Shown here piece by piece: positions 12,251-49,882 of a DNA stretch of 64,000 bases. The DNA lies in contig NC_057925.1 of assembly GCF_018873765.1 (NCBI RefSeq), forward strand, positions 50,976,010 through 51,040,009, given 5' to 3'. Both the position numbers and the translations under genes were made by a program. The notes under the pieces were generated by a model that did no database searches, was not told the origin of the DNA, and saw only the letters and a list, made by a program, of their open reading frames with translations. Numbering within the stretch: the stretch's first letter is position 1; each line of letters opens with the position of its first letter. This DNA comes from Telopea speciosissima. Its lineage: Eukaryota; Streptophyta; Magnoliopsida; Proteales; Proteaceae.

Positions 12251-14120
12251 TTATTGTTGTTGCCTTATCCTTGAAACCATATTCTCGGACATCTGAAGAG
12301 CAGCAACGATGAACAACAAGAAAAACAATTATTAGCCACACATATCCAAGAACAAACAATATGCATCAGATTTAAATGCAAGTAAAATATTGCAATAATT
12401 GGCTGATCATCTAATTTAATCAGTTATATTACTTTATTTTTTCAACTAATGACAAATGATTTGTTTTGAATACATGTAGGTGAAAAATTGTTTATTGACA
12501 AAAGGATTAAATTAAGATTACAATTGAAGGTTTAAAACCTAAGTACATGTTTGATCAATGTAAAACAACTCATGTCTTTTATGGGAATTAGTTTTCTGTT
12601 TGAGAATGTGATCTACGTCAGCACTACCATGTACCTCTTTTTTCCCCATTTCTTCATTTCATTTGTTTCGTTTGGATCCAAGTAACCAACCCCATTAAAT
12701 TGGGATAAGACTGAGTTTGTTGTTGTTGTTGCTCATATAGATTCACCAAATGTAAAATCATTCCAAGGAAAAATACGAAAGCAAGAAAAAGGGAATTACT
12801 GACCATCTCAGAATGTGGAAGATACTTCCCATCAAATGTCACAACAACACGATCTTTCCCATCAGCACCTTTAATTTTGTCCACGAGCATTAGAAGTCTA
12901 TAGCTGACATACTATATCCAAAATGAAGAAAAAAAAAACAAAAATCAATCAAATGAACCTCAATGTATTCAGGATAAGTTGTGCAACCATCAAATGAAGA
13001 CTTATCCATCAAAAGGGGAAAAAAATCAAATGAAGACTTCTATTATTGGGGTGAGATTCATAGTTCGTGATCTCGGTATCGATTGGATCGGATCGGATCG
13101 GCCGATACGATTCAGGATCGCCCAAACTTGGGCAAATATGACACTTTCGTTCTTGTTTTCTTATAAAAAAAAATATTTTTTTAACATTTTTACCCCTGTC
13201 CGTTCAACTGAATCGGATTGGTATCGGGATCAGCCTCGATCGATACCTATCCGATCCGACCAAAATCGACCGATCCGATCCAATACCTCAAACCATGATG
13301 AGATTACATTTCCAATAACAAAGTGAACAAGGAAACATGATGATTCAGCAACATCAATCTAATGGCAATATGCTATTGGATGGTGGTCCCATTTACGAAG
13401 TCAAATCAATACATTCTAAGAAGAAAAATTTGAATATCTATCTCATCAAATGTCGTAAGTTTCATACCAAATCCCATCAATCTAATCTATATAATATTTA
13501 ATCTGAACTCTCATTTAAAAACCCCAATTCTTTAAAGGGAACCTTAGTAATAACCCCCCACCCTCTAAAAAAAATTCTGATTTGAAAGAATAAATATAAT
13601 ACAACTTACATGCCATCACCAAAGTCCTCATTGATGATCTCCTTAATGCTCTCACCAAAATGCATAACAGCTTCATTAAATCTATTTAGAATCAGAAAAA
13701 TATGTTAGAATCTCTACTCTGCCCATTCAAAGGGGGAAATTTGAATTAGTTCAGAGAGCATCAACCAGTACAAACATTAAAATCTCATCTTTTATGATGC
13801 ATAGAGAAATTTTAGGAATCAAAGTTCCAAAAATTAGTACAGAAGAAAACCCACCTGTAAATTGCAGGTTCTCTGATAATTTCAGGATCATAAGACCTCA
13901 TAGGAGGATTCATCATCTCCTGGATGAGGTCGTCGGTGAGGTCCGGAAGTGAAGCCCTAAGTTTAGAGACAGTAGAGGGCTTGAGTTGAGCCTGCCTCCG
14001 CAATAGCTGACCCACATACACATTGGTCAGTCCTGTCTCCTCCGCAATCTCACTATAACTCTTACCGGACTTCTGTTTCACAGCAAGAAGACGGTTCACC
14101 ATGCTTGCTTTGCTCTCCAT
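12251..14120 (-). pseudogene. CYN: Cyanase (cyanate hydratase) copy 1, broken in exon 3
   Basis: Exons on the minus strand are 14120-13855, 13681-13610, 12911-12804 and 12292-12251. Exon 1 encodes the N-terminal helix-turn-helix-like region ([38 protein letters not shown]). Exon 2 gives [15 protein letters not shown] and INEDFGDG. Exon 4 gives [12 protein letters not shown] then stop. In exon 3 the codon after MSAIDF is TAA where copies 2-4 have TAC (Tyr), and one base is missing a few codons later (exon is 108 nt against 109). The reading would stop after 119 residues, losing most of the C-terminal part. All splice sites remain GT-AG, so the gene was probably disabled recently. Intron 2 carries a gatcgg palindrome absent from copy 2. 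Confidence 0.88.
13060..13295. mobile_element. Palindromic gatcgg-rich element in cyanase copy 1 intron 2
   Basis: The left arm has gtatcgattggatcggatcg and the right arm has ccgatccgatccaatac, which are near-complementary. The centre is AT-rich (acatttttacccctgtcc). At the matching place in copy 2 (about 24.15-24.20 kb) this block is missing, so it is an insertion relative to that paralogue. Exact ends and a target duplication could not be fixed. Confidence 0.6.
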
Positions 14121-14480
14121 TATTGCCCACAAATACAATACAATAGAACTCTCTTCTCTCCTTTCGGCTTTTAATTAGCAACACAATTGCTTTAGATTAT
14201 GTGAATGGCTCTCTCTCCTGCAATCTCGCTTCAATTTAAATGGTTATTTTCACTCATTCTTTATTCTGAAATTTTTTTGGGGGGCAGAGTTTTGAGATGG
14301 CTTAAAAAACCCCTTAAGGGACAGAGTAACAAACAAACGCTCAAGGCTCAGACTCAAGGGACGTATTAAAGGATAAAAAACAGTAGTTGATCTGTATGGC
14401 GTGCAACGTGGATGTAGAGAGTCGTGGAAGAAAGTCCAACTCACGCTTTTCTGCCTTAATAAGGAATTATCTTATCTCGA
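14121..14480 (-). promoter_or_regulatory. Upstream region of cyanase copy 1
   Basis: Sequence 5' of the copy 1 start, matched by 25.02-25.40 kb upstream of copy 2. Shared phrases include cacaattgctt, ggcagagttttgagatggct and gacgtattaaaggataaaaa. The atttaaat at 14235-14242 (aatttaaatggtt) is a possible TATA-like box about 120 bp from the start codon, but this is a guess. Confidence 0.35.
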
Positions 14481-14524
14481 ACCCTCTTTTTGCCCCCTCG
14501 AGACCAAATAAGAGGCACTAGTGC

Positions 14525-14680
14525 TCACTTGTTGAACGCTTGGTCACGGTTCAAGTCTTGGAAATAGATTCTCTGGAAACAGGGGTAAAGTTACGTACAT
14601 TTGGCCTTCCCCAGACCTTGCTAAATGCGGAAGCCTTGTGTACTAGGTACGGCTTTTTCATACATATTATGAAAGTCGAA
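14525..14680 (+). mobile_element. Au-type SINE (tRNA-derived), unit A
   Basis: The stretch has the Au SINE body order: ggtcacggttcaagtcttgg (box B-like), then gaaacaggggtaaagttacg, ccttccccagacc and gcggaagccttgtgtactag. It is diverged. The paralogous sequence near 25.56 kb in unit B lacks it, so it inserted after, or was lost from, the duplicate. A clear target duplication was not found, so ends are approximate. Confidence 0.7.
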
Positions 14681-14991
14681 TCCTTCTCTAGTTTACCAAA
14701 AAAAAAAACCTCTCCTTACAAATCACAGATATTGTTGCTTGTCAGTTGTCACAAACTAATAAAGAGAAAAAGAATGCCACCAGGTTGCTCCAGACACGTT
14801 GCACCTGTGTCATGACAAAATGACCGCCACACCCTTGGTCATAAACTTTTTATTCAAAATAATGAAATCTGGATCATTGATTCTTATACCCATGTCATAT
14901 TAAAGTTTCTAACGTTCTCAAATACAGAAATTCATAATTTCTTCCAATTTACGGTATACTCCTCCAATATGAAAGTTTCTAACTTCCTCCC

Positions 14992-15524
14992 TATTGTGAC
15001 AAATTCTGACTCGAGCAGTGGTCCACCTGGTCGGGTCGTCCTGCACAGATCAACCACAAGAAAGACAAAGAAGTGCCGGCCTGAGCCGGTTAGTACACTC
15101 CGATGCCTTAGTAAGAGTTTGCAACAGATAGAAATCTCAAGCTAGTGAGCTTAAGCAAGAAGAAATGAAGTGAATCCATACCTTGGCTTGGCATGGCCAT
15201 TTATAGCTTTGAGCTACTAAACGGTACCTAAACTTTACCTGTTTATGGACGATAACTTTGGTTTTATGTCGTCCTCGGTGGTATGTTCTCTGGTCGACAC
15301 GTATGTGACCTAGAGTCATGCGGGAAGTGTGATTAGGGTCATGCGAGAAGCATGTCCCTAACCTGACCGGAGTCTCTTACTGGGTTGAGTTAACCATCGA
15401 CTCTGGTCAGGTGAGATTATCCCGAGGTCGGTATCTCGATCCGAGCTCCTGGCGGTCGAGCCGGGGCTGACCTGTTCGTCCACGTGTAATGTGGGGATTG
15501 GTTCTGGTCAATTATGACCTATCA
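14992..15524 (-). mobile_element. LTR-like insertion, 533 bp, 5-bp flanking repeat
   Basis: The block is flanked by ctccc at 14987-14991 and 15525-15529. In unit B the matching position (about 25.87 kb) reads straight through cttcccaactcgg with no insert. On the minus strand it begins tgataggtcataattgacc and ends near aatttgtcacaata. The size, TG start and 5-bp duplication suggest a solo LTR or small LTR-element remnant. No coding part is seen, and the family is not identified. Confidence 0.55.
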
Positions 15525-15549
15525 CTCCCCAACTCGGACTTCGACTTGC

Positions 15550-15660
15550 GATCATGTTTTGAGGAATCGGTATCGATCGATCTGGCCTATTCGGATCGGT
15601 ATCGGTCTCCCCCGATACCTATTCATGACTGATCCTGTATCAGTGGTGGATCGAACAAGG
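15550..15660. repeat. gatcgg/ggtatcgg palindromic repeat, unit A copy
   Basis: Contains gaggaatcggtatcgatcga, tcggatcggtatcgg and cccgatacctattc, which partly fold back on each other. It is paralogous to 25.90-26.07 kb in unit B, so this copy is older than the duplication, unlike the one at 13.06 kb. Confidence 0.5.
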
Positions 15661-16310
15661 GTACAAATAAGAACACCCCCTGAAGAAAAATATATATAAG
15701 GGAAGCATTCCTCTTAGGCAAACTATCTGGCGGCTCTCTATGACGAATTAGTTTGATGACTATACTTGCAACTTCTGACGAGTATGTTGATCTCCTTCTC
15801 TTCAATCCCTCTCCCCCCTCCCCCTTCGTTTATATGCGCAATTAGGGGCAGAATAATACCTGGCCCTCTATGAACTCCTCTCTGCTATCCCTCCCCTCCC
15901 CCTTCCCCTTAGAAACCCTCTTTGTGAAAATAGCTCCACGATTAGTCAAGTTGTAATAGTTCACATGAGACAGTAATTAGTTGTAACAACTTAATTCATA
16001 GGTAGTTATATCAATAGGAAGAAAAATTGATCTTAGTGATTCATCAATATAGTCTTCCACAAAAATATCGAACACTTCTCAGCTCCGTCAGTATATAATT
16101 TGGTTGAAACCTTTTTAATTGACATCTCCCTTCTTAAGCAGGACAAATAGGTCATCACCTCTTTGCTGGCTATAACGCTCGATTTCTTTTTGATATTTTG
16201 GAATGATGGCCTATTTCAAAATACCAAACCCAATCCTTACCAGGTTTTCCAATTAATTGATCGATGGTCCTCTAATATTAAGTCTTTTTCTTCTTCATTT
16301 CATATGTGTG
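15661..16310. other. Unit A spacer without a recognisable gene
   Basis: Short open frames only. It holds two CT/CCCTCCCC-rich stretches near 15.80-15.91 kb. No protein family was recognised. Confidence 0.35.
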
Positions 16311-16828
16311 AGAATCTTATCACTAATCCTCTTCATAATGTTGTCCTTTCCATTGAAGATTACCAAGGATTATCACATGAGATATAACATCTTTTGATTT
16401 GAAATGGTAATTTTGAGCCTTCTTCAAGAAATGTAGGGTTAGGCGTCAATTCTACTATATAACTCTCAATTTGCGTGACTTCCATAAACAATAGTTTTGT
16501 TGGGACAGATTGTAAGCAGGTGGTTGAATGGATCATGCAAGATACTCAAAAAGGGTGGCCTTGGGGAGTATTCAATTTAATATGTTGTTGGATGTTTCAA
16601 TACTAATTAAGTCCTTTGATGCTACCAATCCTTTTTGATGCTATTAATATTCAAAAACAAAGAAAAGATGTTATTTCTATTGCTAATAAACGAGCTTCTT
16701 AAGGCCAGAGTAGAAAAGTTGAGTCTATTAGTATTGGACGATGTGTGAAATACCTTTATCACTAATTTATTTTTTTATTTTTTTTTCATCAATAAAAAAA
16801 AAATGTTGCCTCTTATCTCAATTATATG

Positions 16829-17238
16829 TAGGGGTGTCAACGGGCCGGGTTTGGCCTTGACCCTAGCCCAACCTTGACAGCCTTAACCTAAACCCAAGCC
16901 CAACCTGACCCTGCCAAGGCCAAGTATATCCTCAACCCAGCCCGACCTTGGCAAGGTTTTCTCAAGCCTGGCCCGGCCCTGAATAATAAACTGCCCATCA
17001 CAATCCACTTAATATATATATATTCATATAGCCCCAACCCACTTAACAAAGCCTATATTTATTAAGTGCAAACGGGGTCGGGCTGGCCTTGCCAGGGCCA
17101 AGGCTCAACCCAGGTCCAGCCCAGCCCTGCCATGGCCAAGAAAATATTAAATCTAGCCCGACCCCAGTACGAACAACCGCCTGACCCAGCCTTGTCTGGG
17201 CTTAGGGCGGGTTAGGCTGGGTATTTTTTACACCCCTA
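16829..17238. mobile_element. hAT-like gccggg-rich element, unit A copy
   Basis: Ends are taggggtgtcaacgggccgg on the left and ttttacacccctaa on the right, inverted to each other. The flanks attatatg (16821-16828) and attatacg (17239-17246) are an 8-bp target duplication with one mismatch. The interior is a series of gcccagcccgacc-type words without coding. A paralogous copy at 27485-28050 shows it predates the A/B duplication. Confidence 0.75.
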
Positions 17239-17379
17239 ATTATACGGTTCACAATGTATGAATTTTCTTATAAAATTTACCAAGAAATACAAACAAAATG
17301 TAAAAACTATATAATAAGGAAAAGTGGAATGTAGAAAGTCGATATCCCATATTAAAGCTCAACCAAATTTTAAATTTTA

Positions 17380-17763
17380 GGGTAAATTACATGTTACCTC
17401 CTGATTTTCAAACAAAACTCAGATCACCCCCTGATTTTTTTAAAAACTCAAATCACCTCCTAGTTTAAACCCCAATATGACAAATTAGTCTCTAACGTTA
17501 GTTTTATGCTGTTAAGTGATTATGTCAGCCAGTTAAATAAATTTAAATCCTTAAACTACCCTTGACCAATGTTGAAGATGAAGGAAAAATAGTATTATAA
17601 ATTTAATTCTAATGTTTTAGTATAAGGGTAAAATAGTCCTTTCACACCAATAACTGACAGCAAATTAACACCGTTACTGTAGAGGGGTGATTTGAGTTTT
17701 TTCAAAAACCAGGAGGTGGTCTGAGTTTTGTTTGAAAACCAGAGAGTAACATGTAATTTACCC
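17380..17763. mobile_element. MULE-like MITE, 384 bp, 9-bp target duplication
   Basis: The ends are long inverted repeats of more than 80 bp: left gggtaaattacatgttacct, right read on the other strand gggtaaattacatgttactc, with tttcaaacaaaactcaga in both. Flanks are taaatttta (17371-17379) and aaaatttta (17764-17772). In unit B the same site near 28.19 kb is empty, reading accaaattttcaattttatt. No coding content. Confidence 0.85.
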
Positions 17764-18184
17764 AAAATTTTATTAAATTTTAACGCATTTAGTGTTAAAT
17801 TTAATTATTTAAAATGATTACAATAATCTTATTATACTAATAATGAAAAATGACAAAAATATGTACGGTGGGCTCAATTAAATACACATGAGACGTGTCA
17901 TGCATTTAGATCTCCTCTAATTTTTTTTGGGTAAAGGAGGATGCGTTTTTTAATGGATTCATTTGCAGCACATGTCCAACCACCAATTAGGTTAGGTTAA
18001 CCTTGAGTTCATCTATTTGTATTTAAATAATGAGGAATAATTTTGGTAATTCGTATATACCACTATAACCTATACCAAAAAAAGTATATACCACTATAAC
18101 CAAAAGAAAATAGTTCCCCACCCACGTCACCGATCTGTGTGAATCCTTAACCATTAAATATCGACCCTCCAATTATAAGCCAAT

Positions 18185-18540
18185 TTGGCGATTTCCAACC
18201 GTCGATGTTTCTCCCCTACGCAGTTCTCCTTCTTCTCTCGATGTTATTCCCAAATCCCATTTGTAAGTCCCTTCAGTCACTTTCTTCATCTTCCCCCAAA
18301 CTGTTCTTTCTCTAGTATCTATCTCTGTCTCTGTCTTTCTGATCTCTCTCTATCCATCTATCTTCTATTCATACTTGTAGTTATTAGTTTTATGTTGAAT
18401 CCAGATTTTGAAGCTCTAGCCAAGAAAATGTGGGTTCTGTTTCCAAAGGAGATTGAAATGCTGCATTATGTTTGGAAGGTAGCCAAATTTGGCTTGGGTG
18501 GCATTGGGAAATTTCCCAGAGAAATATTATTTTAGAAGTT
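18185..18540 (+). pseudogene. Unrecognised transcript-like fragment, copy A
   Basis: A CT-rich leader-like stretch (tctctgtctctgtctttc) precedes an open frame with MLNPDFEALAKKMWVLFPKE and IEMLHYVWKVAKFGLGG. The same leader and the KEIEMLHYVWK phrase recur at 28.67-28.97 kb, and the leader with MLNPDFEALAK recurs at 36.94-37.21 kb. In copy B the open frame begins MKLGGDVLDLGSNPG, where VLDLGxxPG resembles motif I of SAM-dependent methyltransferases, but nothing else supports that family. Each copy ends differently, so these look like broken duplicates of one gene. Confidence 0.4.
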
Positions 18541-21883: not shown

Positions 21884-22017
21884 ATAAATTTTTTGAGTTC
21901 AACACAAGTTCAGATTTTTTTGTGGGTGGTGTTGGGGGGGCGGGGTGGAAGAATTTATTCCCTGCTTCTTTGACTTGGGGACACATGATTTGTTTTCTTG
22001 TATGATATAAAAATGAC

Positions 22018-22560
22018 CATTTTTTTTAATAGGTCTTGATTTGAATATTTCAGAAAGTGCAAAAAATACAAGTTTTGGGTTTTAGTTTGTTATTTTCTAC
22101 AAAAATCATTTGAGTTTTGGAATTCGAATTTCGGAGTCTTCGTTTTGGGCCTGGGATCATTCTTGATCTTTAGTCCAAAACAACTTGGCTTACTTTAAAT
22201 CTGTCCATGGTCTTTAAATTTTGGGTTTTGAGTTATGAGTTAGCTCACAAGGTCAGGAGGTTCAGATATCTACTTCTTTGTTTGTCTTTGGGCTAGAAAT
22301 TAGCCCATTAATTGAGTCCCAATTCGGACTTGGTTCGGGTCCAATATTGTTTAGTCTTAGTTTCCCTTTTTTGGGGAGTTGGCCATGTAGTTTGCGAGTA
22401 TTTTTCTTTTGATAATGAGTTGGGTTTTATTCCCCTCCTCCTCCCTCCCAAGTCCCAACCAAGAATATTCCTTCCCAAACATGGTAGTTCATTTAATTTC
22501 TCACTTCAAGTTAGGATATATAAAAGATCACCATGCCACATTTATTTCTCTATTTCAAGA
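22018..22560. repeat. Cyanase 3'-flank repeat (F segment), copy 1
   Basis: Begins ttaataggtcttgatttgaa and includes gttttggaattcgaatttcg and ggagttggccatgtag. The same block recurs in direct orientation at 26.39-26.89 kb, and in part at 37.97-38.24 kb next to cyanase copy 3. It is the 3' flank of cyanase copy 2, so the copy at 26.4 kb marks a second, cyanase-less duplicate end. Confidence 0.7.
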
Positions 22561-22903
22561 TGAAAAAGGATTAACATAAGTGAAAAAGATAATTCAATGC
22601 CCACATTCAATTCTTGTTTGAAGAAGAAATGAAGTATTAATTTAACTGCCAAAAAAAATGTAAATGAAGTTATAGTCGTCAAAAACTACCGTGCGACTCT
22701 TTTCGGTAAAATTTTATACAAGTGTAAATGAGATTAATGGCCTTTATTCAACTAAACATATAAACAGAAAATTACAATGTAGAGATAGAAGTTTCCTCCT
22801 ACTGAGCTTTATTCATCAAAAGACTGATGTCTAACAGTCAAATGCAACAACAATGAAGAAGTTCATGCCTTCGTAGGCAGCAAAAGCAGGGGTTTCATTA
22901 GAT

Positions 22904-25016
22904 TTATTGTTGGCTTATCCTTGAAACCATATTCTCGGACATCTGAAGAGCAGCAACAATGGACAACAAGAAAAACAATTATCAGGCATACATATCAAAG
23001 AACAAACAACATGCATCAGATTTAAAAGCGATTAAAATATTGTAATAATTGGCTGATCATCTAATTAAATCAGTTATATTATTTTACTTTTTCAACTGAT
23101 AACAAATGACTTGTTTTGAATACATGTAGGTGAAAAGTTGTTTACTGACAAAAAGATTAAATTAAGATTACAATTGAAGGTTTAAAACCTAAGTACATGC
23201 TTGATCGATATAAAACAACTCATATCTTTTATGGGAAATTGTTTTCTGTTCAGGAGTGTGGCCTATGCCAGCACTACCATGTTGCTATCTCTCTCCTCCT
23301 CAAAACAAGGGGGCAAAGATGTCTTTTCATATGGGGAAGATAGAGACAGACTCTTGGACAGCATTCTTTTTCCCATCTTTTATATATTATCCCTTTTCTA
23401 ACATGGTTTTAAAATGAAATACAAGAACTTTTCTCAAGTAAACTCAAGCACCATCTTTCTACAATTTCATTATTTCCTCAGCAACTCAGTTCACAAAATA
23501 TATAATTTGACCTTCATAAGATTTTAAAATAAAAAATATATACAAATAAAAATGAGAAACCAACATGTTTCCTTAACAAATTGAGATTGTATTATAAGCA
23601 AAAAATAAAATTTCCCTTTTCCTTTTTTGGGGAGGGTGATGATCGGGGTCATTGATCGGTGATGTCTGAAGGGATTGTGGGAGATTTAAAATGAGTACCA
23701 ACCCTACAAATTAAGAGTGTATGCTCATATAGATTCACCATCTCATCGCCTTCCCACCCCTCTTTTCCCCTCTCTTCATTCCCTTTGTTTCGTTTGGATC
23801 CAAGTAACGGATCCCATTAAGTTGGGATAACGCTGAGTTTGTTGTTGCTCATATAGATTCACCAAATGTAAAATCTTTTCAAGGAAAAATACGAAAGCAA
23901 GGAAAAAGGAATTACTGACCATCTCAGAATGTGGCAGATACTTCCCATCAAATGTCACAACAACACGATCTTTCCCATCAACACCTTTAATTTTATCCAC
24001 TGAGCAGTAGAAGTCTATAGCTGACATACTAATTCCAAAATGAAGAAAAAAAAATCAATCAATTGAACCTCAATGTATTCAGGAAAAGTTGTGCAACCAT
24101 CAAATGAAGACTTATCCATCAAAAGGGGGAAAAATCAAATGAAGACTTCTATTATTGGGATGGAGGAATTTATCCCCTATGACAACATTTCTAATGACAT
24201 AGTGAACAAGGCAACATGATGACTCAACAACATCAATCTCGTGGCAACATGCTATTGGGTGGTGGTCCTGTTTACGGGGTCAAATCAATACGTTCTAAGA
24301 AGAAATATTTGAATATCTATCTCATCAAATCTAGTAAGTATCATACCAAATCTCATCAATCAGATCATTTTTTCAATAATTAATCCATAAAATATTTAAT
24401 CTGAACTCTCATTTAAAAACCCCAATTCTTTAAAGGGAACCTTACTAATAACTCCCCACCCTCTAAAAAAAATTTGATTTAAAAGAAGAAATATAATACA
24501 ACTTACATGCCATCACCAAAGTCCTCATTGATGATCTCCTTAATGCTCTCACCAAAATGCATAACAGCTTCATTAAATCTATTTAGAATCAGAAAAATAT
24601 GTTAGAATCTCTACTCTGCCCAATCAAAGGGGATAATTTGAAATTAGTTCAGAGAGCATCAACCAGTACAAACGTTAAAACCCCATCTCACGATGCATAG
24701 AGAAATTTTAAGAATCAAAGTTACAACAATTAGTATAGAAGAAAACCCACCTGTAAATTGCAGGTTCTCTGATAATTTCAGGATCATAAGACCTCATAGG
24801 AGGAATCATCATCTCCTGGATGAGGTCGTCGGTGAGGCCCGGAAGTGAAGCCCTAAGTTTAGGGACAGTGGAGGGCTTGAGTTGAGCCTGCCTCCGCAAT
24901 AGCTGACCCACATAAACATTGGTCAGTCCTGTCTCCTCCGCAATCTGAGTATAGCTCTTACCGGACTTCTGTTTCACAGCAAGAAGACGGTTCACCATGC
25001 TTGCTTTGCTCTCCAT
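22904..25016 (-). CDS. CYN: Cyanase (cyanate hydratase) copy 2, four exons
   Basis: Exons on the minus strand are 25016-24751, 24578-24507, 24028-23920 and 22942-22904, all with GT-AG introns, giving 161 aa. Cyanase is a cytosolic decamer that turns cyanate plus bicarbonate into carbamate (then ammonia) and CO2. Residues 1-88 form the helical N-terminal domain ([40 protein letters not shown]). The C-terminal catalytic part has R89, E92 and S115, matching the spacing of E. coli Arg96/Glu99/Ser122. The Arg codon is split by intron 1, and Ser is in exon 3 ([20 protein letters not shown]). The end is [12 protein letters not shown]. Differences from the other copies include Gly60 for Asp and Ile71 near [10 protein letters not shown]. 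Intron 3 has ~480 bp (about 23.28-23.75 kb) absent from copy 1. Confidence 0.92.
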
Positions 25017-25433
25017 TAATGCCCACAAACACAATGCAATACAATACAGTAGAACTCTCTTCTATCCTTTCGGCTTTTGGCAACACAATTGCTTAGATTA
25101 TGTGAATGGCTCTCTCCCCTACAATCTCGCTTCAATTTAAATGGCAGTTTCACTCATACTTTATTCCGTCAAGTGAACTTGTTTTGGGGGCAGAGTTTTG
25201 AGATGGCTAAACAAACCCCCAAGGGACAAAGTAACAAACAATCAAACCCTCAAGTATTAAACTCAAGGGACGTATTAAAGGATAAAAAACAGAAGTCGAT
25301 CTGTTTGGCGTGCAACGTGGATGCAAAGAGTCGTGGAAGAAAAAGTCCTGCAGTTTTTCCACGCTTTTCGGCCGAATTATCTCGAACCCTCCATTTCCTG
25401 CCGATTCCGGATCAGTTATATATACATGGGACG

Positions 25434-25530
25434 GGTGGGGATAGATCTGAACACTCCATGAGGCGTGTGACCCATAGGTGAAACTTACACCCAATGGAGG
25501 AGTCAGATCTGTCCGCACCCGTCCCCATGT
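25434..25530. mobile_element. Short foldback, acatgggacgggtgggga ends
   Basis: The left arm has acatgggacgggtggggata and the right arm has cgcacccgtccccatgt, which are complementary, and both are followed inward by agatctg/cagatct. Related sequence with acatgggacaggtggggaca lies at 37448-37530. No coding capacity. Confidence 0.65.
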
Positions 25531-25894
25531 GGGTAGCAGATTGCCCCCTCAAGACTAAATAAAATAAGAGGCACTCATAGCACCCGGTAGCTCCAGGCAT
25601 GCTGCACCTATGTCCTAAAAAAATGACTGTCGCACCTCTGATCATTTCAAGGGTTTAGGGGTGTGCCGATCAGGCAAAAGGTTTACTGATCGGTAGACCA
25701 GCTAATCGTATTGGTAGTCGATGGTGATCTTTACATTTCATTTAGAATAATGAAATCTGGACCATTGATTTTTATACCCATGTTATATTAAAGGTTCTAA
25801 TGTTCTCAAACACAGAAATTCACAATTTCTATTAGTTTACGGTATACTTATAAGTGTCTAACTTCCTTCCCAACTCGGACTCCAACTTGCGATC

Positions 25895-26075
25895 ATGTCT
25901 TGAATCGGTATCGGACTCCATTGAAATCGATTCTTAACTGATCTTGTATCGGTGGATTGGTACGAATAAAGATAAAAATGAGAAGGAAAAAAAAAACTAG
26001 TTTTTTTAATAAAAGAGTGTCGATCCAGACTGATACAACCAATCTGGATCGGTATCAATCTCGACTACTAAAACC
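25895..26075. repeat. gatcgg/ggtatcgg palindromic repeat, unit B copy
   Basis: Carries ttgaatcggtatcgg and, further right, aatctggatcggtatcaatc around an AT-rich centre with a run of A. It corresponds to 15.55-15.66 kb in unit A. Confidence 0.5.
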
Positions 26076-26387
26076 CTACTTGCAATGCTCAGAGTGGTAT
26101 AACAGTTGGGAGACACTGGCAGCCAGTAGAAGCTCATGAAGGAGAACATGGCTTTCTCCATCCTAAAGCAAGAGGTGATTATGCTCAAATTCTCATTTGT
26201 ATCGAATAAATTTGCCCCTGATCTTCCTTGAAAAATAGGTTTTTGATTGATTTACTCATTACCCCTTGTTCGTACAGTGTCACCGATACAGTATCAACAC
26301 AATATCGGAATCATCAAGGTGTAAAATCGTTGGATCGCACAGCACTTAGAACCATGTTTTGGTTCGTATGGTTATTATTGTTATTTT

Positions 26388-26890
26388 TTTTAATAGGTCT
26401 TGATTTGAATATTTCAGAAAGTGCAAAAAAAATAAAAAGGTTTTGGGCTTTAGTTTGTTATTTTCTATAAAAAATATTTGAGTTTTAGAATTCGAATTCG
26501 GAGCCTTCGTTTTGGTGCTGGGATCATTCTTGATGTTTAGTCCAAAACTACTTGGCTTACATTAAATCTGGCCATGATCTTTAAATTTTGGGTTTTTAGC
26601 TTTGAGTTAGCTCACAATGTCAGGAGGTTCAGACATTTGTCTTTGGGCTAGAAATTAACCCATTAATTGAGTCCCAATTCAGATTTGGTTCGGGTCCAAT
26701 ATTGTTTAGTCTTAGTTTCTCTTTTTTTGGGGAGTTGGCCATGTAGTTTGTGAGTATTTTTCTTTTGATAATGAGTTGGGTTTTATTTCCCTCCTCCTCC
26801 TTCCCAAGTCCCAACCAAGAATATTCATTTCCTAACATGGTAGTTCATTTAATTTCTCACTTCAAGATGGGAAATATAAAAGATCACCAT
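26388..26890. repeat. Cyanase 3'-flank repeat (F segment), copy 2
   Basis: A direct duplicate of 22.02-22.56 kb, sharing aataggtcttgatttgaata, gagttagctcacaatgtcag and tgataatgagttgggtttta. It is not next to a cyanase 3' end. It joins directly to the block that matches 16.31 kb in unit A, so a duplication breakpoint lies at about 26.90 kb. Confidence 0.7.
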
Positions 26891-27484
26891 GCCACATTTA
26901 TTTCTCATTAATCCTCTTCATAATGTTGTCCTTTCTATTGAGGATTATTAGGGATTATCACATGAGAAATAACATCTTTTGATTTGTGATGGTAGTTTTG
27001 GGCCGCCTTCAAGAAGTGAAGGTTCGGCGTCAATTCTACTATGTAACTCTCAGATTGCGTGGCTTCTATAAACAATAGTTTTATAGGGACGTCACAAGAA
27101 TCAGAGGTATGGGGAGTGCTTCAAGACTGAAGTAAGCAAAGGAATAAGACTGGGGAATAGTAACGATTTGGATAGATTGTAAGCAAGTGGTTAAATGGAT
27201 CATGCAAGATACTCAAGAAGGGTGGCCTTGAGAAGTGTTTAATATGTTGTTGGATATTTCCATACTAATTAAGTCCTTTGATACTATTAATCCTTATTGA
27301 TGCTATTAATATTCAAAAACAAAGTAATATGTTATTTCTATTGCTTATAAACGAGCCACTTAAGGCTAGAGTAGAAAAGTTGCGTCTAGTAGTATTGGAC
27401 GATGTGTGTAATACCTTTATCACTAATTAATTATCTATTTCTTTTTCATTAAAAAAAAATGTTGCCTCGTATCTCAATTATAAG

Positions 27485-28050
27485 TAGGGGTGTCCACGGG
27501 TCGGGGTTGGCCTTAACCTAAACCCAAGCCCAGCCCGATCTTGCCAGGACCAAGCATACCCTCAACCCAGCCTGACCCTTGCAGGATTTTCCTAAGTCCA
27601 GCTCAGCCCTAAATAGTGAACAGCCCATCACAGCCCACTTAAAAAAGTTCCAATCCACTTAACAAAACCCCAGCCCACTTAACATATATATATTATCTAT
27701 TCACATAGTTCCAGCCCACTTAACACATATATATTATCTATTCACATAGTTCCAGCCCACTTAACAAAACCCACTTAACAAGTCCCATATTTATTAAGTT
27801 CAGCCTTAAAAATGCACTAGAGTATTATTAAGTGGATACAAGATTGGGCCCATATTTATTAAGTGCATACAGGGTCAGGCTGGCCCTGCAAGGGGCAAGG
27901 CCTCAACCTAGACCCGTCTAGGCCTTGCCAGGGATAGGAAAATATTAAACCCAGTCCGATCTTGGTAGTAACACAGGCCTGACCCATCTCTATCAGGATT
28001 CAGGAGGGCTAGGGCCAAGTCGGGATGGCCGGGTTTTTTTGAGACCCCTT
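27485..28050. mobile_element. hAT-like gccggg-rich element, unit B copy, with expansion
   Basis: Paralogue of 16829-17238. The left end is taggggtgtccacggg and the right end gagacccctt. Flanks attataag and attcatac are decayed 8-bp duplications. It is longer than the unit A copy because of repeated cagcccacttaac units: two ~41-bp tandem copies at about 27671-27752, each with tattatctattcacatagtt. Confidence 0.65.
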
Positions 28051-28639
28051 ATTCATACGGCTTACCATGTATGATTTTATCTTATATAGTTTACTAAAAA
28101 ATACATACAAAATGTAAAAATTATAGAATAAGAAAAAAATGGAATGTAGAAAGTGGATATCCCATATTAAAGCTCAACCAAATTTTCAATTTTATTAAGT
28201 TTTAATGCATTTACTGTAAAATTTAATTATTTAAAATGATTACAATAATATTATTTTACTAATAATGATATATGACATAAATATGTACGGTGGACCCAAT
28301 TAAATACACATGTGTTCTACCAAAAATGGGCTTCCTTTTTTTTCGGTAAATAAAAAATGTCCAATAACCAATTAGGTTCGGTCAAACCTTTTGTATTTAA
28401 ATAATAAGGAATAATTTTGGTAATTCATGTGTACCACTATATAAACAAAAGGAAATTAAAAGAAATTTTCTCATCCACGTCAGCGATCTGTGTGAATCTT
28501 TATCCATTAAATATCGACCTTTCAATTATAAGCCATTTTGGCGATCCCAAACGTCCATTTTTTTTAATGTTTTTTTGGTTAAAATGTAGTCATACAAATA
28601 ACACACCATTCCCAAAACGTTAATCGACTAGGACGGATC

Positions 28640-33000: not shown

Positions 33001-34178
33001 GAGATCCATGTGCCATTGCTGTATTGGATGGAGGAGATCCAATTCCTGGATCTTCGAGTTTGTAGAGATCGGTGAAAAAATGCCGAGTTCCTATCTCCAT
33101 GTGTAAGCCATCTTACCCGAGATTTTTGGCGCAGCTCCGATTCTCTCGCATTCATCAAACGCTTGAGGTGGGAGACGTGGGCTCTTTCAAGGCTTAATGT
33201 GTCCTAATCAGTGCAGCCAGAGTGGATAGAGGCCTGGAGAAGCTCCACAGTTTGAGCTGTAGCTTTGATTCGATCATCAAGGTTACTGAACGTGAAGTGG
33301 CTCCACCCCTTCAACCTGTTTTTCAGCATTTTAAGTTTAGAAAGCAATATGAACATGGGCGCATCGGTTACCTGTTGGCCCCAGACATCTTGGACAAGTG
33401 GGAGGAAATCGTCATGGTCTGCCCAATGATTGGAGAAGTAGAATTGCTTGCCACGTCGCATCGGTGGGGGTTCCAATGTGACGACCATGGGACAGTGATA
33501 AAAAATGCTTTGATTATGAAAGTGGACATGAGCAGTAGGGAAAGTGGTCAACCAATTGCTGTCCACCAGAGTCTGATCAATTTTTGTAGATATACGGCCC
33601 ATTCTAGTACTTTGAGTGCTCCATGTGAACCAATTACCCGACCAGTGTAGATCCGCCAGGCCGGTGTCAGAGATGCAAGAGGCGAGAGGCTGCGTCATTG
33701 CTGTTGTAACCGGCCGCCCTCCTTCCTTTTCACTTGGGTCACTTATGGAATTAAAATCGTCGAGGAGGATCCATGGCAACGAGTTCCCATTACTGATTTA
33801 TCGTATGTCATTCCAAAGTTCTTCCCTGTCTGGTGCAAAATTCGCTCCATGAATAATAGAGATATGTATAGGTTGTTGCGACTGCTTAATGCAAGCATGG
33901 ACATGGATTAATTGTGATGATGTCAAGATAGGATGGATATCAACTTGTTCCTCATCCCATAGCAGCCATATGCGTCCTGCATCACTGGAAGTGTAGTTGT
34001 TCAGGAATTTTCAGCGACTGCCGAATATCCTCACAGAGTTCTCAAAGTTGCAATGTTTGACATGTGTCTCTACTAATCCGGCAATAGCAAGCTGGTTCGA
34101 AGCCATCCAATCTTTCATCGCTCTACATTTACCAGGGTCGTTTAATCCCCTGGTGTTCCACGCACCAACTTTAATCAT
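30017..34178 (-). pseudogene. LINE ORF2 (endonuclease, reverse transcriptase, RNase H), decayed
   Basis: Start MIKVGAWNTRGLNDPGK at 34178. Apurinic-type endonuclease motifs are LVETHVKHCNFENSVRIFG, ILLDDFNSISDPSEKEGG and WSGNWFTW. Reverse transcriptase: LTLIPKGTWQNTFSDYRLIT, ANRLKGVLHKLVGENQSAF, AKIDLEKAYDSVQW, GLRQGCPMSPFLFNIVLQVF, and the catalytic box FIDDLFVFG (F-I-D-D). A zf-RVT part (CVLCQGGTENLGHLFFQC) and an RNase H (WVAINCDGSIRGD, HMELKAIYSGLKKA, SDSLMAIQIIL) follow, ending CLPDALSVN. Breaks seen include a TGA for Trp after RIFGSR, a TAG after SGCTD, a one-base shift in WSFL/IHAI near 32385, a TAA after GHLALI, and shifts near 31.5 kb and 30.14 kb. RNase H in the L1 ORF2 is a known plant LINE feature. 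Confidence 0.85.
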
Positions 34179-35702
34179 TGAGAACTGGTGAGTGGAGAGC
34201 GTTTCGCAAGGGTGCTCCAGACCAGGCTTCGTTCACGTTCATGTGGGATCATCATGGTACCATTCGCATCTACCTGGGCAGCCTCATCAGATTGCAGGGA
34301 TGCAAACCTGTTCTCAGTGTTGGAAGGCCTGGGGAAGGAGGTCGGGTTGTTCTCCTTGTTTCCGTTAATGAAGTGTGCCATATCCTTAATCGATGATTTG
34401 GAGCGACATGGTCCCTTGGGTTGCTGATCGCCTCTATCCCTGACCCGGGATGGTTCGACCGTGCCACTCTGATCACCGGGAGGTATCGTGGGGACAGAGG
34501 GAGCAGGAGGCGTAACCTCTTTGGGGTGTGCCACCTCTGGAGTGGGAAGAACCGTGTGCATGTTAGTCACGCCTCTGGAGGTGTTTTGGATATGGGTAAC
34601 CCCCTCCATATTCGCGGATAAATCGGAACTAGATGACGCCACATGACTTGGTTTATCTTTGATAGCGAGAACGATGGGCCCCTTCTTAGCATCTGAGACT
34701 GTATAGCGTGAGAAATTCAAATCTGAGAGAGTGTTCATTGAAGACTGCACTGCGGACGCCGGAGCAGCAGAATCCGACGGGGATGGTACAGTTGCCTCGC
34801 GTGATACACTCCTCTTCCCCTTACCACGGCGTCTAGTAGATTCCTGCCACTCCGATTCCATGCCTGCTACTGTATTGTTGGTGTTCGCATTTGCAATGTG
34901 CTTCGCAGTAAGGATCAGGCATGACTTCTCATTGTGGCCAGTCGTATTTCACTGGTTGTTCAAGTAATGACCCATCATCCTGCATAATGGACACTGTCAA
35001 AGGTAATCCATCCTCAACTTTAACTAGGACGCAAACACGGGCAAAGGAGAGCCTCTCCTTCTGGGCTCTTCAGCGATCAGCACAAATGGGTTTACCAATG
35101 ACACTGGCAATTTTCCCTAGCGTTTGAGACCCTCAAAAGTGAAGGTTGAGTCCGTAGAACTGTACCCAAAGGGGTAGCTGTGATTCTTCTTTCTTCACTA
35201 AGGACACCTCTGGTGACCATGCCCGAAGAATTAGTGGCCTCGCACCAAAGGTCCATGGACCTACATCAATAATTTGACGACAAATACTTGCTTCCTGGAA
35301 ATCAAACACAAAGATCCCGCTCTCCAGTCCGTATACTTCCACTGCTCCCATGTGTGCCCACTTCTCTCGAACGAATTGTTTCATCATCGCAAAGGATGGT
35401 TTCGGACCAAAGACGTATCCCACAAGAGCGGCTTCCCAACGCCCTTTTTCTTCGGATAGGTCTGCACTATTGCACCTTGCTACTCTCTTCCCATCTATGA
35501 TCTCAGGTTCGATGAACGGAATCGTATTCTCCCTCTCTGGACTAGTTTGACCAGTGACAAGGCTTGCCCATGTTCTCGTTGCACCATTACACGCCTCCTC
35601 ATTGATAGCAACTGGTGGAGGGGAGACAACCATCTCCTGGTCCACCGAGTTGGGGTTGCCTGTGTCCATTCTTGCCAGGGGTATTCCGGCAGGTGCTACC
35701 AT
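34175..35702 (-). pseudogene. LINE ORF1 (nucleic-acid-binding, DUF4283 type), decayed
   Basis: It reads from MVAPAGIPLARMDTGNP at 35702. The DUF4283-like region has GRWEAALVGYVFGPKPSF, GIFVFDFQEASICRQI, DVGPWTFGARPLILRAWSP and PLWVQFYGLNLHF. The first stop (35135-35133) is a TGA where a Trp codon is expected, and a second TGA follows in ADRWRAQKERL. At the zinc knuckle the reading jumps from YDW to HNEKSC, so ~8-10 residues of the knuckle are lost and the frame shifts. The tail (34861-34175) begins MESEWQESTRRRGKGK, is basic and Ser/Pro-rich, and ends KRSPLTSSQ. Its TGA overlaps the ORF2 start as ATGA. LINE ORF1 proteins bind element RNA. Confidence 0.8.
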
Positions 35703-35808
35703 CCAATCTCAGTCTCTCTCAATCGCCTCAGGATAGGAGTTTAATAATAGAGAAATTCTTGTTATTGTAATCTTAATTTTTTTGTTTTTTTCTTCACTCT
35801 TTATAGTT

Positions 35809-36410: not shown

Positions 36411-36479
36411 TGATTCGTAAATTACTCCCTCCTCTCGATTATCCCCAAATGATATGTCTCACCCCTGGGTATTGAGTAA

Positions 36480-39504: not shown

Positions 39505-41937
39505 TTATTGCAGCTTTATCCTTGACACCATACTCTCCGACACCTGAAGAGAAGTAACAGTGATAACAACAACAACAACAACAAAAACAACTATCAGGCA
39601 TGCATATCCAAAAAACACAGAAAATGCATCTGATTTAAATGCCAGTAAAAGATTGCAATAATTTATTGATGATCTAATTAAGTCAAGGGAAAAACATTCT
39701 CATGACGCAAGAGTACTATTACCCTCTCACATGGGATTCTTTATTATTTTCTCTCTTATTTTGATAATGTGGATTCTATGTGAATGATTCTAGTATCATC
39801 ACCGCCATTAATGTGGCGTGCAGATTCTTACCCACAATGGCCTCATGGAAAACCCTCTCCCCTGAAATCAATTATATTAGTTTATATTCTCAACTAAGAC
39901 TGCAGAATAGTAGTGGATTATCAAATAGATTTGGCAAATGTAAAATCTTTCCCAGGGAAAAGGAATTACTGACCATCTCAGAATGTGGCAGGTACTTCCC
40001 ATCAAATGTCACAACAACACGATCCTTCCCATCAACACCTTTAATTTTGTCAACCGAGCAGTAGAAGTCTATAGCTGACATACTAATTCCAAAATAAAAA
40101 AATACTTCAATCAGATGAACCTCAATGTATTCGGGAAAAGTTTATTCAATCATGAAATGAAGATTTACCCATCACAAGAGGGGATCAAATGAAAGTAATT
40201 TCTCCTATCTAATCTAATTACATTCCCCCATGACAAAATGAACAAGAAAACATGATGATTCATAAACATCATGGTTTGCAACCTACAAGAAATTTAACCT
40301 AAATTTAACCTCAACTCTTTAGTCAAGGACCAACCACAACACCCCCCCCCCCTCCCAAAAGAAAAGAAGGATTTAAAGGAAGAAAGATAATAGGACTTAC
40401 ATGCCATCACCAAACTCCTCATTGATGATGTCCTTAATGCTCTCACCAAAATGCATAACGGCTTCATTAAATCTATAGAATCAGAAAAATATAAGAGTCA
40501 ACAGATCAACAAAGAAATAACTCAAAGATATGCAAAAGGAAAGGATTCACACTTTATACAACTTTTCTCAGCTTATCAAAAACAAAAAGGCTCATGGATG
40601 AGAGAGAGAGTCAAGTAAAAAATTAAGGAAAGACTACAAGTGAAGGCAAAGGGGTGTGCGAAATAACAGTCACACCCCTTGGAACCCCAAAAATGATTAG
40701 AGATGCAGTGGTCATTTTTCATGCTCTTATGTCAGTGTGCAGGGGACGTGTCTGCGACTGGGCAGCGTTCTTTTCTCCAAAAAAAAAATAATATTGGTTA
40801 AAAAATCAGAACATGAGAAATGTTGAAAGGTCAAAAGCATCTTGACATCAGAGACATTTTGAAGTAATGACTTGACTGAGATCACATCCATTTTATCAAA
40901 AACAAAAAAAGACTGAGATCACATCCATTGGCCTAAAGCTTGCAGTGCAAGGGTCAGAACAGAAATCAAGAATTCAAATGAGACCTATGTTGTCTTCCTT
41001 CACCACCCCCCCCCCCCCCACAAGGTTATTCTACACAGTTTTAGTTGTTGAAGCTCTCTTTCTCTCAACTTTAGTTGTTGTCTGCATCTACTGTTTTGTA
41101 GTAAAAGAAAGAATTTTATTAGAAAGTTATCCAATCTTTTATCCAAATCAAAACAGGGATTCTCAAAACTTTATATTTTCTGAGAGAAGCACAATCCAGG
41201 GGAATGTATAGCCCTTGATTGCCAACCACTTCCTCAGTGTATCTATAATGGCAGTCCAGACCAAATACTTATTGAGAATGATTTGTAAATGGAAAGAGAA
41301 GACAGCCCATATTTTCAAGGATAAGTTTAATGATTTTGGTAAGATATTAAAACAAAAAAAAAAACTTAGGGCTTCAGAATTAGGCCTTGGAACCAATAAA
41401 TAAGAAATGAATTTGGACCTCTGTTCTACCCCAAAAAAAAATATAAAGAATTTGAACCTCTGTCCATGGCTTATTCAATAAATAGTCAATGATTTTAAAA
41501 TCTCTATTCTGCCCAATCAAAAGGCTGATCTGAATTGGTTGAGAAAGGATCAATCATATCAGTAAGCAAAAAACCAGCACAACATGAAACCCACCTCATG
41601 CATAGATAATCAAAGATTTTTTTTGATGAATAGAGAATCGAATTTACTAAAAAATAGTAGAGAAAACCCACCTGTAAATAGAAGGTTCTCTGATAATTTC
41701 AGGATCGTAAGACCTCATAGGATGAGACATCATCTCCTGGATGAGGTCGTCGGTGAGATCCGGAAGTGAAGCCCTAAGTTTAGGGACAGTGGAGGGCTTG
41801 AGTTGGGCCTGCCTCCGCAATAGCTGACCTACGTACACATTGGTCAGTCCCGTCTCTTCTGCAATCTCAGTATAACTCTTACCGGACTTCTGTTTCACAG
41901 CAAGAAGACGGTTCACCACGCTTGCTTTGTTCTCCAT
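39505..41937 (-). CDS. CYN: Cyanase (cyanate hydratase) copy 3, four exons
   Basis: Exons on the minus strand are 41937-41672, 40472-40401, 40082-39974 and 39543-39505, with GT-AG introns, giving 161 aa. It starts [20 protein letters not shown]. Exon 2 reads [15 protein letters not shown] and INEEFGDG, exon 3 [20 protein letters not shown], and the C-terminus is [12 protein letters not shown], with Val and Ser where copies 1, 2 and 4 have Met and Asn. The catalytic Arg89, Glu92 and Ser115 are present. Intron 1 is the longest of the four (~1.2 kb) and holds a MITE-like block near 40.64-40.78 kb and poly-C runs. It reads intact. It is the left arm of an inverted pair with copy 4, ~6.7 kb away start to start. 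Confidence 0.92.
40640..40780. mobile_element. MITE-like foldback in cyanase copy 3 intron 1
   Basis: Contains gcagtggtcatttttcatgc and ends near gggcagcgttcttttctcc, resembling the right end of the element at 8661-8858 (tagcgttctttctccc). The left half (ggggtgtgcgaaataacagt) folds weakly with it. Ends are approximate. Confidence 0.45.
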
Positions 41938-43595: not shown

Positions 43596-43636
43596 TTTTT
43601 TTTTTTTTTGGGGGGGGGGGGGGAGGGAGGGGAAGA
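43596..43636. repeat. Poly-T / poly-G tract
   Basis: About 16 T are followed directly by a G-rich run. The same compound T-then-G arrangement occurs at 49182-49220 inside cyanase copy 4. Length in such runs is unreliable in assemblies. Confidence 0.7.
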
Positions 43637-43641
43637 ACTCA

Positions 43642-46585: not shown

Positions 46586-46590
46586 ACTCA

Positions 46591-47470
46591 AGTGAATAAT
46601 CTCTTTTGGCATAAGAGAGCCTTGGAAGAGGCTAGCCTAGGATATGTTGGCGTTTGATGTCTTGTATTCCATCACTTGCATAAGTGGGCCGATAACATGT
46701 ATAGGGTTTCACTATAAATTTGTAAAAACAATTTGAGAAGAATACGTGAGGACGAGCAGCTGTAACTCTATTCTCCATTGATAGTGAGACAAATCTCATC
46801 TCACCATGGACGTAAGCAATTTTGTCGAACATTGTAAATCATTGTATTTGATTGTGTGATTGTTTGTTTACGATTTTCAATCTTTTATACATCGTTATAA
46901 GTTTTCATTTTTTCTACAAACTGGCATCAGAGCTTATAGGCTTTCTTTTTTGGGGGGTTTTCTATCAACATTGTGTGATTGTTTTTTTGTGATTTTCATT
47001 TTTTTTCTACATCATTGTAGGTTTTCCTTTTTCTACAAATTGATATTAGAGCCTCTAGTTTTTCAGTTTTTTTGGGTTTTTTATCACAATGGCAAAGAAG
47101 GGATCAAGTGTTAAACATGACATCGAGAAGTTTAATTGGAAGAATAACTTCACCCTCTAACGGCGAAGGATGAAGGATCTTCTGATACAACAGTGTTGGG
47201 CGAAGACTTTGCTGGGGAAGTCAAAGAAACCAAAAAAAGTGAGTGATGAAGACACGGAAGAGATGGAGGAGAAGACGGTAAGCGTTATCCGGTTGAATAT
47301 TTCATATGACACTCTACAATATGTGGTGGATCTCAAATCTACAGTGGAGGTATGGGTGAAACTTGAAAATATTTACACTACGAAGTCAACAAGTCTTTTG
47401 TTCACTGGTGTCAGACAGTGCTACGGTTGACTGTTGGAATGGCCAACAGAAGTGCAACATTGAGGGCTAG
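46591..47470 (+). mobile_element. Ty1/copia element fossil, 5' part only
   Basis: LTR-like sequence (46.59-46.92 kb) is followed by a primer-site-like phrase, tggcatcagagctta (46922), which is typical of the initiator-Met tRNA site of plant copia elements. A related phrase, ttgatattagagcc, follows ~120 bp later in a duplicated leader. A gag reading follows, with MAKKGSSVKHDIEKFNWK and later RLNISYDTLQYVVDL. It is broken and only the 5' portion is present. No right LTR was found. Confidence 0.7.
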
Positions 47471-48449
47471 GTTTTGTATTTTCAATTGCAAATTTTTCTT
47501 GCGTTTTTACATACGGTTTAATGAAGGTTAGGGGTGAGGGTAAAATAGACTTTTTCATTCAACCACTAACAGTAGACTAACACCATCAGATTTCATAAGG
47601 CTTCAAGTAAAAGTTTCAAAAGTTGGGTGTGTCAAGCAATTGGGCCATAGTATAGAGGTGTACAAGTAATTGGTAATGCAAGGCAATATGTTTAAGTGTT
47701 TTTGGTATCCATATGTTATGCCCTTCAATAGTCTGTCCCATTTCTTATAAAACTCTATTTAACCTGAGGCACATCGAGTCATAGAGGAATGAAATACATA
47801 GGCCTATCAAAACTGTTTTTTATATGGGAGAGGGATAGACACACCCCCACCCTGCAGTAAGCTAGCGGACGACACTAATTGGGGAACGGAACCGCACATC
47901 ATACAGTTGAGGCAGGGGAGTCATTCCAAAGTATGGGTGACTTTTCTATGATGAAACTACTTCATTTTTCATGACTAATGAAGTTTTCCTTTCATAATTA
48001 AAAAAACCAAAAAACAAAGAAGTATGTGTTGCTTATGTTTAATCTCAAGGGCAAAAATGGAGTTCTATAATTCATTATTAAGGCGATAGAAATGCTTGGA
48101 AATTACTCCATTATAAAGGAAAGAAGGATTATCTAGTTCATAGTTGATTTTTTGTTTCCACACTCTCATTCATCCATGTTACACACCCTATAGATCATTC
48201 TTTCAAGATTTTTGTTTTATTTTTTTTATTATTAATGTTTTGACAAAATTTATGTGGGGAGTGTACCGATCATGCCTAGACACAGAGGGGACGAAATGAC
48301 CACCCCGTGTCCATAAAAGACAGAAATCTCACCCCATTATGCCATTGCACATGCTCTCATTATGCCCATGCGCGCACAGGGACCACACAACCCCCCCCCC
48401 CCCCCAACACCACACACCACAGAAAAGGCAGATCCATGTTTTTAAAATA
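47471..48449. other. Spacer upstream of cyanase copy 4
   Basis: No gene was recognised. The stretches at 47.83-47.95 and 48.25-48.38 kb carry cacacccccaccctgcagta and gacgaaatgaccaccccgtg, related in style to the atgaccacc foldbacks but without clear arms. A C run of ~16 lies at 48390-48405. Confidence 0.4.
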
Positions 48450-48644
48450 GTCCCTTGGGGAGTTTGTTTGGCTATTTCCACAACTGATGCCCCCAAAAAA
48501 ATAAATAAATAAAACCGTAGAAATAACCATATAAATTGCAGTGGAAGAGCGAGACTAGAGAGCAATTCACAGAATTGAATTGAAGCAATTTTGTTACTAA
48601 AAGCCGCCGAAAGAGAAAACAGAGTTATATTTGTGTAGCCAATA

Positions 48645-49882
48645 ATGGAGAGCAAAGCAAACGTGGTGAACCGTCTTCTAGCTGTGAAACAGAAGTCCGG
48701 TAAGACTTACAGTGAGATTGCAGAGGAGACAGGACTGACCAATGTATACGTAGGTCAGCTATTGCGGAAGCAGGCCCAACTCAAGCCCTCCACTGTCCCT
48801 AAACTTAGGGCTTCACTTCCGGACCTCACCGACGACCTTATCCAGGAGATGATGTCTCATCCTATGAGGTCTTACGATCCTGAAATTATCAGAGAACCTT
48901 CTATTTATAGGTGGGTTATCTTCTACACTATTTTTTTGTAACTTTGATTCTCTATGGGTCACGAGATAGGGATTTAATGTTTGTACTGGTTTATGCTTTC
49001 TAGACCAATTCAAATCACCCCTTTGATTAGGCAGAGAAGAGATTCTAACATATTTTTCTAATTATATATATATATAGATTCAATGAAGCTGTTATGCATT
49101 TCGGTGAGAGCATTAAGGACATCATCAATGAGGACTTTGGTGATGGCATGTAAGTCCTATTATCTTTCTTCCTCCAAATTTTTTTTTTTTTTTTTTTTGG
49201 GGGGGGGGGGGGGGGGGGAGAGGGGATCCGGGTCCTCTACTTATGAGCTGCCCCTACTGCCATGCAACCCAGACACAGTAAGGCAGTAAAGACCGCCTTA
49301 CTCCCCGGTGAAACTACATTGACGGATAAGTTTTCATTTGATGATTGCACAACTTTTCCTGGATACATTGAGGTTCATCTTATTGAAGGTTTTTTTTTTT
49401 TTTTTTGTTCATTTTGGAATTAGTATGTCAGCTATAGACTTCTACTGCTCCGTAGACAAAATTAAAGGTGTTGATGGAAAGGATCGTGTTGTTGTGACAT
49501 TTGATGGGAAGTATTTGCCACATTCTGAGATGGTCAGTAATTCTGTTCTCCTTGCTCTCGTAAATTTTTTTGGAAAAAATTTTTACAAGTGGTATCTATT
49601 TGAGGGATAGGGTTCTCCGCCATGCCAATGTGAAAAAGAATCTATATACCACACTAATAGTGATGAGACATACATGGTCAGAGTAATAGAGAGAAAATAA
49701 TAAAAAATTCCATGTGAGATAAATAGCTTTGGCATCGTGGAAGAGTTTTTCCCTTGACTTAATTAGATGATCAATCAACTATTGTAATCTTTTACTAACA
49801 TTTAAAGATGATGCTTGTTATTGTTGTTGCTTTTCAGATGTCCGAGAATATGGTGTCAAGGATAAGGCTGCAACAAAGCTAA
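48645..49882 (+). CDS. CYN: Cyanase (cyanate hydratase) copy 4, four exons
   Basis: Exons on the plus strand are 48645-48910, 49078-49149, 49424-49532 and 49838-49882, with GT-AG introns, giving 163 aa. It starts [20 protein letters not shown]. Exon 2 reads [15 protein letters not shown] and INEDFGDG, exon 3 [20 protein letters not shown], and the end is [13 protein letters not shown]. Arg89 (split by intron 1), Glu92 and Ser115 are present. It is the most compact copy (1.24 kb), and its intron 2 carries a T/G run and a GC-richer insert at 49.18-49.32 kb. It is the only copy on the plus strand, head to head with copy 3. Its 3' flank is also conserved with that of copy 3. Confidence 0.92.
49182..49322. 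repeat. Poly-T/poly-G run plus GC-richer insert in cyanase copy 4 intron 2
   Basis: About 20 T and then ~20 G precede gagaggggatccgggtcctc, atgcaacccagacacag and ttactccccggtgaaactac. Copies 1-3 have no such block at this place, so it is an insertion in copy 4. Its class is not recognised; a reversed SINE-like element ending in an A/C tail is one possibility. Confidence 0.5.

Follow-up and report, generated by a model that had tools for sequence, protein, structure and literature searches.

The plant cyanases AtCYN and OsCYN (EC 4.2.1.104) are active homodecamers. In Arabidopsis, plants that express more cyanase resist cyanate better, and salt induces AtCYN (PMC3070753). Here we describe four neighbouring cyanase loci, c1 to c4, in a stretch of 64,000 nucleotides of Telopea speciosissima DNA (contig NC_057925.1, positions 50,976,010 to 51,040,009; the whole stretch is called the window). 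They extend from position 12251, the final base of the c1 exon 4 stop codon, to position 49882, the final base of the c4 stop codon. Three of them (c1, c2 and c3) lie on the minus strand and c4 on the plus strand. They very probably form a small cluster evolving by birth and death, with local duplications at the DNA level, one dead copy (c1), two constrained copies (c3 and c4) and one open copy of uncertain status (c2).

The c2 to c4 proteins resemble known plant cyanases in length (161 amino acids (aa) for c2 and c3 and 163 aa for c4, compared to 154-168 aa in the land plants of Table 1 of PMC3070753), in their cyanate lyase domain and catalytic trio, and in a short tail past the GKYLP motif, where the aligned E. 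coli chain ends. They differ in number: four neighbouring copies are present here whereas that published table gives one accession per plant species, copy number being unstated. The bacterial cynS product (E. coli, 1dw9) shares the domain, the trio and membership of a decamer-forming family, and identity to 80 bacterial relatives is 33-40%. However, the bacterial gene has no introns and its product does not carry the C-terminal tail of c4.

Plant gene families in tandem arrays that evolve by birth and death are a general class. The locus resembles them in its multi-kb direct repeats, its inverted copy, its pseudogene and the retroelements lying between copies; only the gene involved is unusual. 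No report of a plant cyanase array was found in the open-access literature, as judged from titles and abstract openings among the matches listed, which is weak evidence.

Gene structure of the four copies

Gene models were established by matching exon edges across the four copies and by aligning each exon with its surroundings (Table 1). The initial annotation had proposed four clustered copies with a common four-exon structure and common intron phases, and the loci were found at the positions claimed. Exons measure 266, 72, 109 and 39-45 nt (108 nt for exon 3 of c1). Intron phases are 2/2/0, the phase of c1 intron 3 being shifted by a deletion. The donors of introns 1 to 3 read GTGGGT, GTAAGT and GTCAGT in all four copies, and the 12 acceptors all end in AG. 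The proposal that three copies are apparently intact also stands: c2 to c4 are open with GT-AG sites, and c1 is disabled in exon 3. Compared to c4, protein identity is 94% for c3 and 92% for c2. The distances from ATG to ATG are 10896 nt (c1-c2), 16921 nt (c2-c3) and 6708 nt (c3-c4).

Exon 1 of every copy is recovered by tblastn with E values of 1e-50 to 1e-57, which excludes chance. Neither tblastn nor blastn identified a fifth set of cyanase exons in the window. Intron 1 of c3 reaches 1199 nt compared to 167-173 nt in the other three copies. Extra sequence is private to this intron (40497-41478) and to intron 3 of c2 (23282-23756); an end-to-end check identified no terminal inverted repeats in either.

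Copy c1 is a pseudogene

Exon 3 of c1 carries a stop at codon 120 (TAC to TAA) and, as a second lesion, has lost one nucleotide at codon 122, outside any homopolymer run. The reading frame does not stay open through the catalytic domain. The substitutions P52S and V129A also occur in c1, at sites where the other three copies agree. The stop is located 86 nt upstream of the last exon junction, a position from which nonsense-mediated decay of a c1 transcript is possible. Intron 2 contains an insertion found in c1 only (13073-13290), which resembles a miniature inverted-repeat transposable element, with GGATCGG-rich inverted ends and perfect 15-nt arms (13082-13096 and 13270-13284).

Copies c2 to c4 belong to the cyanase family

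The three open copies score 104.3 (c2), 103.7 (c3) and 103.1 bits (c4) with the Pfam Cyanate_lyase profile (cut-off 25) and 117.0, 117.3 and 116.6 bits with the NCBIfam TIGR00673 cynS model (cut-off 113.3). With a further subfamily model, NF002773, they reach 122-124 bits and miss the cut-off of 150. Copy c4 aligns over its full length, starting at residue 7, with cyanases of the PDB. It matches 14 distinct solved sequences, the best being the E. coli cyanase 1dw9 (1.4e-23). All are named cyanases except 5uk3, which is titled uncharacterized protein and is a mite cyanase (PMC11085660); the same paper reports that some nematode cyanases derive from plants.

Arg89, Glu92 and Ser115 of c4 align with Arg, Glu and Ser of 1dw9, and c2 and c3 carry identical residues, in agreement with the trio named by the initial annotation. 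PMC3070753 designates these residues as catalytic under the numbers Arg96, Glu99 and Ser122. The bacterial comparison set consists of 80 loci obtained by scanning bacterial genomes with two bacterial chains; the scan using the plant proteins as queries recovered no relative. Glu and Ser of the trio are each conserved in 80 of the 80 relatives. This is also true of Arg, but that residue was part of the search pattern that found all 80.

Over 159 aligned codons, copies c2 to c4 show 16 amino-acid differences, of which 10 fall in residues 1-79, only 3 in residues 80-147 and 3 in residues 148-159. The three proteins are thus almost identical in their catalytic part. They are likely to be ordinary cyanases whose subunits would be nearly interchangeable. 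By homology, each open gene would most likely provide a cyanase subunit able to assemble into a decamer, which would split cyanate with bicarbonate to give ammonia and carbon dioxide.

Duplication history

The tree of the copies was derived from an alignment of the four loci and 500 nt of 5' flank (1697 ungapped columns). The grouping (c1,c2)|(c3,c4) is favoured by 144 sites and the other two by 9 and 10. Blocks taken along the locus give agreeing trees, with no sign of a large conversion tract. Without correction, c1 and c2 differ by 3.1% in exons and 9.3% in introns, c3 and c4 by 6.1% and 28%, and copies from different pairs by 7.5-7.7% and 29-31%. Across the copies, exons are thus 3-8% diverged compared to 9-31% for introns.

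The copies arose by duplication at the DNA level, including the core promoter, the introns and the 3' end. Since all of these were copied, retroposition is excluded. In self-BLAST comparisons, c1 and c2 lie in direct-repeat units, and some of the sequence 3' of c2 is found again next to c3. Adjacent homologous copies with flanks in common and introns retained identify a local tandem gene array. A copy of a cyanase 3' flank was also found with no cyanase exon alongside (26353-26906, Table 1). It abuts, with an abrupt boundary at about 26902-26908, sequence matching the distal part of the c1 5' flank (from position 16317 on). On its left, the adjoining flank that a complete unit would have left behind on deletion is absent. 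It might mark the place of a lost fifth copy or be a stray duplicate.

We propose that DNA-level duplication of a single cyanase gene, together with its core promoter and 3' end, gave two daughters, and that one of these produced c1 and c2, a direct tandem pair separated by about 10.9 kb, and the other c3 and c4, which are inverted and lie head to head. Copy c1 has since died, c3 and c4 code for ordinary cyanases under purifying selection, and c2 has stayed open, with uncertain status.

Promoters and 3' ends

A TATA-like string is located 117-127 nt upstream of the ATG in all copies; it reads CATATAAA in c3 and c4 and CATTTAAA in c1 and c2. The first AATAAA occurs 81-91 nt past the stop codon in each copy. 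Over 500 nt, the 5' flanks diverge by 24% for c1-c2, 34% for c3-c4 and 47-49% between the pairs, the latter being near the level of unalignable sequence. The ethylene-responsive element described in PMC3070753, including a variant of the motif, was found in none of the four regions of 1000 nt upstream of the ATGs.

Selection on the copies

The initial annotation suggested that dN/dS values well below 1 for c2 to c4 would support function. Nei-Gojobori estimates are indeed low among these copies (0.191 for c2-c3, 0.156 for c2-c4 and 0.138 for c3-c4). Pairs that include c1 give 0.386 with c2 (not distinguishable from 1 by a Fisher test, p = 0.15), 0.212 with c3 and 0.158 with c4. Low values of 0.16-0.21 are thus obtained even when the dead copy is compared with c3 and c4. 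Pairwise estimates, which mix recent with older common history, therefore cannot establish that c2 is functional.

Branch tests used a codon model on the tree of the four copies alone (159 codons, broken c1 codons set as missing); p-values are uncorrected and include five single-branch tests. A common dN/dS ratio (omega) for all branches is 0.185, with twice the log-likelihood difference against 1 equal to 34.2. Estimates by branch are 0.44 for c1, 0.41 for c2, 0.21 for c3, 0.08 for c4 and 0.16 for the internal branch. Neutrality (omega = 1) is rejected on the branches of c3 (p = 0.015) and c4 (p = 5.4e-5) and on the internal branch (p = 0.0016), and not on those of c1 (p = 0.41) and c2 (p = 0.30). 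Copies c3 and c4 are under purifying selection. The expectation of the initial annotation is therefore borne out by branch for these two copies and not for c2.

Alternative explanations

Some observations weigh against the birth-and-death reading given above. An omega of 1 is not rejected on the c2 branch (p = 0.30); the c3 result, as one of five single-branch tests, fails Bonferroni correction; no branch model is significantly better than the common omega (p 0.14-0.80); and the N-terminal helix-turn-helix-like domain reaches only 16.5 (c3) and 16.9 bits (c4) with Pfam HTH_3, compared to a cut-off of 23, c2 not being listed. A decaying array, in which the working genes would be c3 and c4 at most, perhaps just one of the two, and c2 would be an early pseudogene as yet spared a disabling hit, with no adaptive amplification, is a plausible alternative, although we lean somewhat against it. 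The c2 estimate resembles that of the dead c1, the two branches jointly give 0.39 with an omega of 1 not rejected (p = 0.13), and c2 has accumulated private changes including E24Q, D60G and R159S. However, c2 has kept an open frame and all its splice sites while its sister took two disabling mutations. The possibility that E24Q and D60G are damaging was rejected: at places 24 and 60 the bacterial relatives most often carry Q and G (55/80 and 42/80, respectively), so these changes look tolerable. Moreover, the common omega fits c2 as well (p = 0.28 for c2 against it). Relaxed selection on this copy is thus not demonstrated, and power is low because the sequence is short.

The initial annotation suggested that amplification could raise dosage or allow sub-functionalisation. 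The extra copies might have been kept because more, or differently regulated, cyanase helps the plant, for example with cyanide as a by-product of ethylene synthesis, with salt stress or with carbamoyl-phosphate breakdown. Such an adaptive amplification appears unlikely. It would agree with the constraint on two copies after their split, with 5' flanks that have diverged between c3 and c4 and between the pairs yet retain a core promoter, and with the dependence of cyanate resistance on expression in transgenic Arabidopsis and the salt induction of AtCYN (PMC3070753). Promoter divergence is, however, also expected from neutral drift, and the ethylene-responsive element was not observed upstream of any copy. 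Finally, it is extremely improbable that the copies are alleles or homeologous haplotypes set side by side in the assembly, an objection raised in the initial annotation. Their introns diverge by 9-31%, the lowest value being that of c1-c2, intron lengths differ by insertions private to single copies, one copy is inverted, the flanking units differ and the 64000 bases of the window contain no N. With one copy dead, two showing signs of selection and one open, the birth-and-death cluster is therefore better described as a limited local amplification of a gene than as a novel type of system.

Neighbouring sequences

The window includes 114 open stretches of at least 80 aa, of which 36 were scanned against Pfam. 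Four of the 36 gave matches, all to retroelement domains. Neither an unrelated gene travelling with the duplicated unit nor cyanide-pathway neighbours were identified among these 36, although short exons could escape such a scan. There were no Rfam matches. Remains of a non-LTR (long terminal repeat) retroelement lie between c2 and c3 (30138-35708, minus strand, several open stretches), and a reverse transcriptase domain is located in the same interval (32352-33203). Copia-type gag matches occur at 47161-47427 (below cut-off) and 61445-62254 (one of two above), and a zf-RVT domain at 52961-53773. These retroelement matches and the plant-like length of the cyanases agree with a plant host. Two open stretches of 207 aa have no Pfam match: a serine-rich, gene-like one at 5944-6567 (minus strand) and another at 520-1143 (plus strand).

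Table 1. Positions in the window of the cyanase copies and associated features
Feature	Position	Strand	Details
c1, cyanase pseudogene	12251-14120	-	exons 14120-13855, 13681-13610, 12911-12804, 12292-12251; stop at codon 120 and deletion at codon 122; splice sites kept
c2, open cyanase gene, 161 aa	22904-25016	-	exons 25016-24751, 24578-24507, 24028-23920, 22942-22904
c3, open cyanase gene, 161 aa	39505-41937	-	exons 41937-41672, 40472-40401, 40082-39974, 39543-39505
c4, open cyanase gene, 163 aa	48645-49882	+	exons 48645-48910, 49078-49149, 49424-49532, 49838-49882; head to head with c3
Tandem segmental unit, c1 copy	12007-18511		self-BLAST pieces of 65-90% identity with gaps between; partner 22661-28923
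Tandem segmental unit, c2 copy	22661-28923		self-BLAST; partner 12007-18511
Orphan copy of cyanase 3' flank	26353-26906		88.6% identity to 21984-22550; no cyanase exon alongside (tblastn, blastn)
TATA-like CATTTAAAT	14234-14242	-	122 nt before c1 ATG; identical string 127 nt before c2 ATG (25143); presumed function
TATA-like CATATAAAT	48528-48536	+	117 nt before c4 ATG; presumed function
TATA-like CATATAAAG	42062	-	125 nt before c3 ATG; presumed function

Possible significance of the cluster

Two or three active cyanases with diverged promoters, whose subunits would combine one catalytic domain with different N-terminal domains and tails, might be made in different tissues or under different stresses and mix into hetero-decamers. 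We consider this improbable. If true, it would amount to sub-functionalisation of cyanase, which until now has been reported in plants as a homodecamer. If the copies are not expressed, the locus would be an ordinary local duplication with gene death. If they are expressed, the cluster would constitute a natural copy-number series for cyanate detoxification at a single locus, with two constrained copies, one uncertain and one dead. It would then offer a means to investigate why several cyanases are required by one plant and where most plant cyanate comes from.

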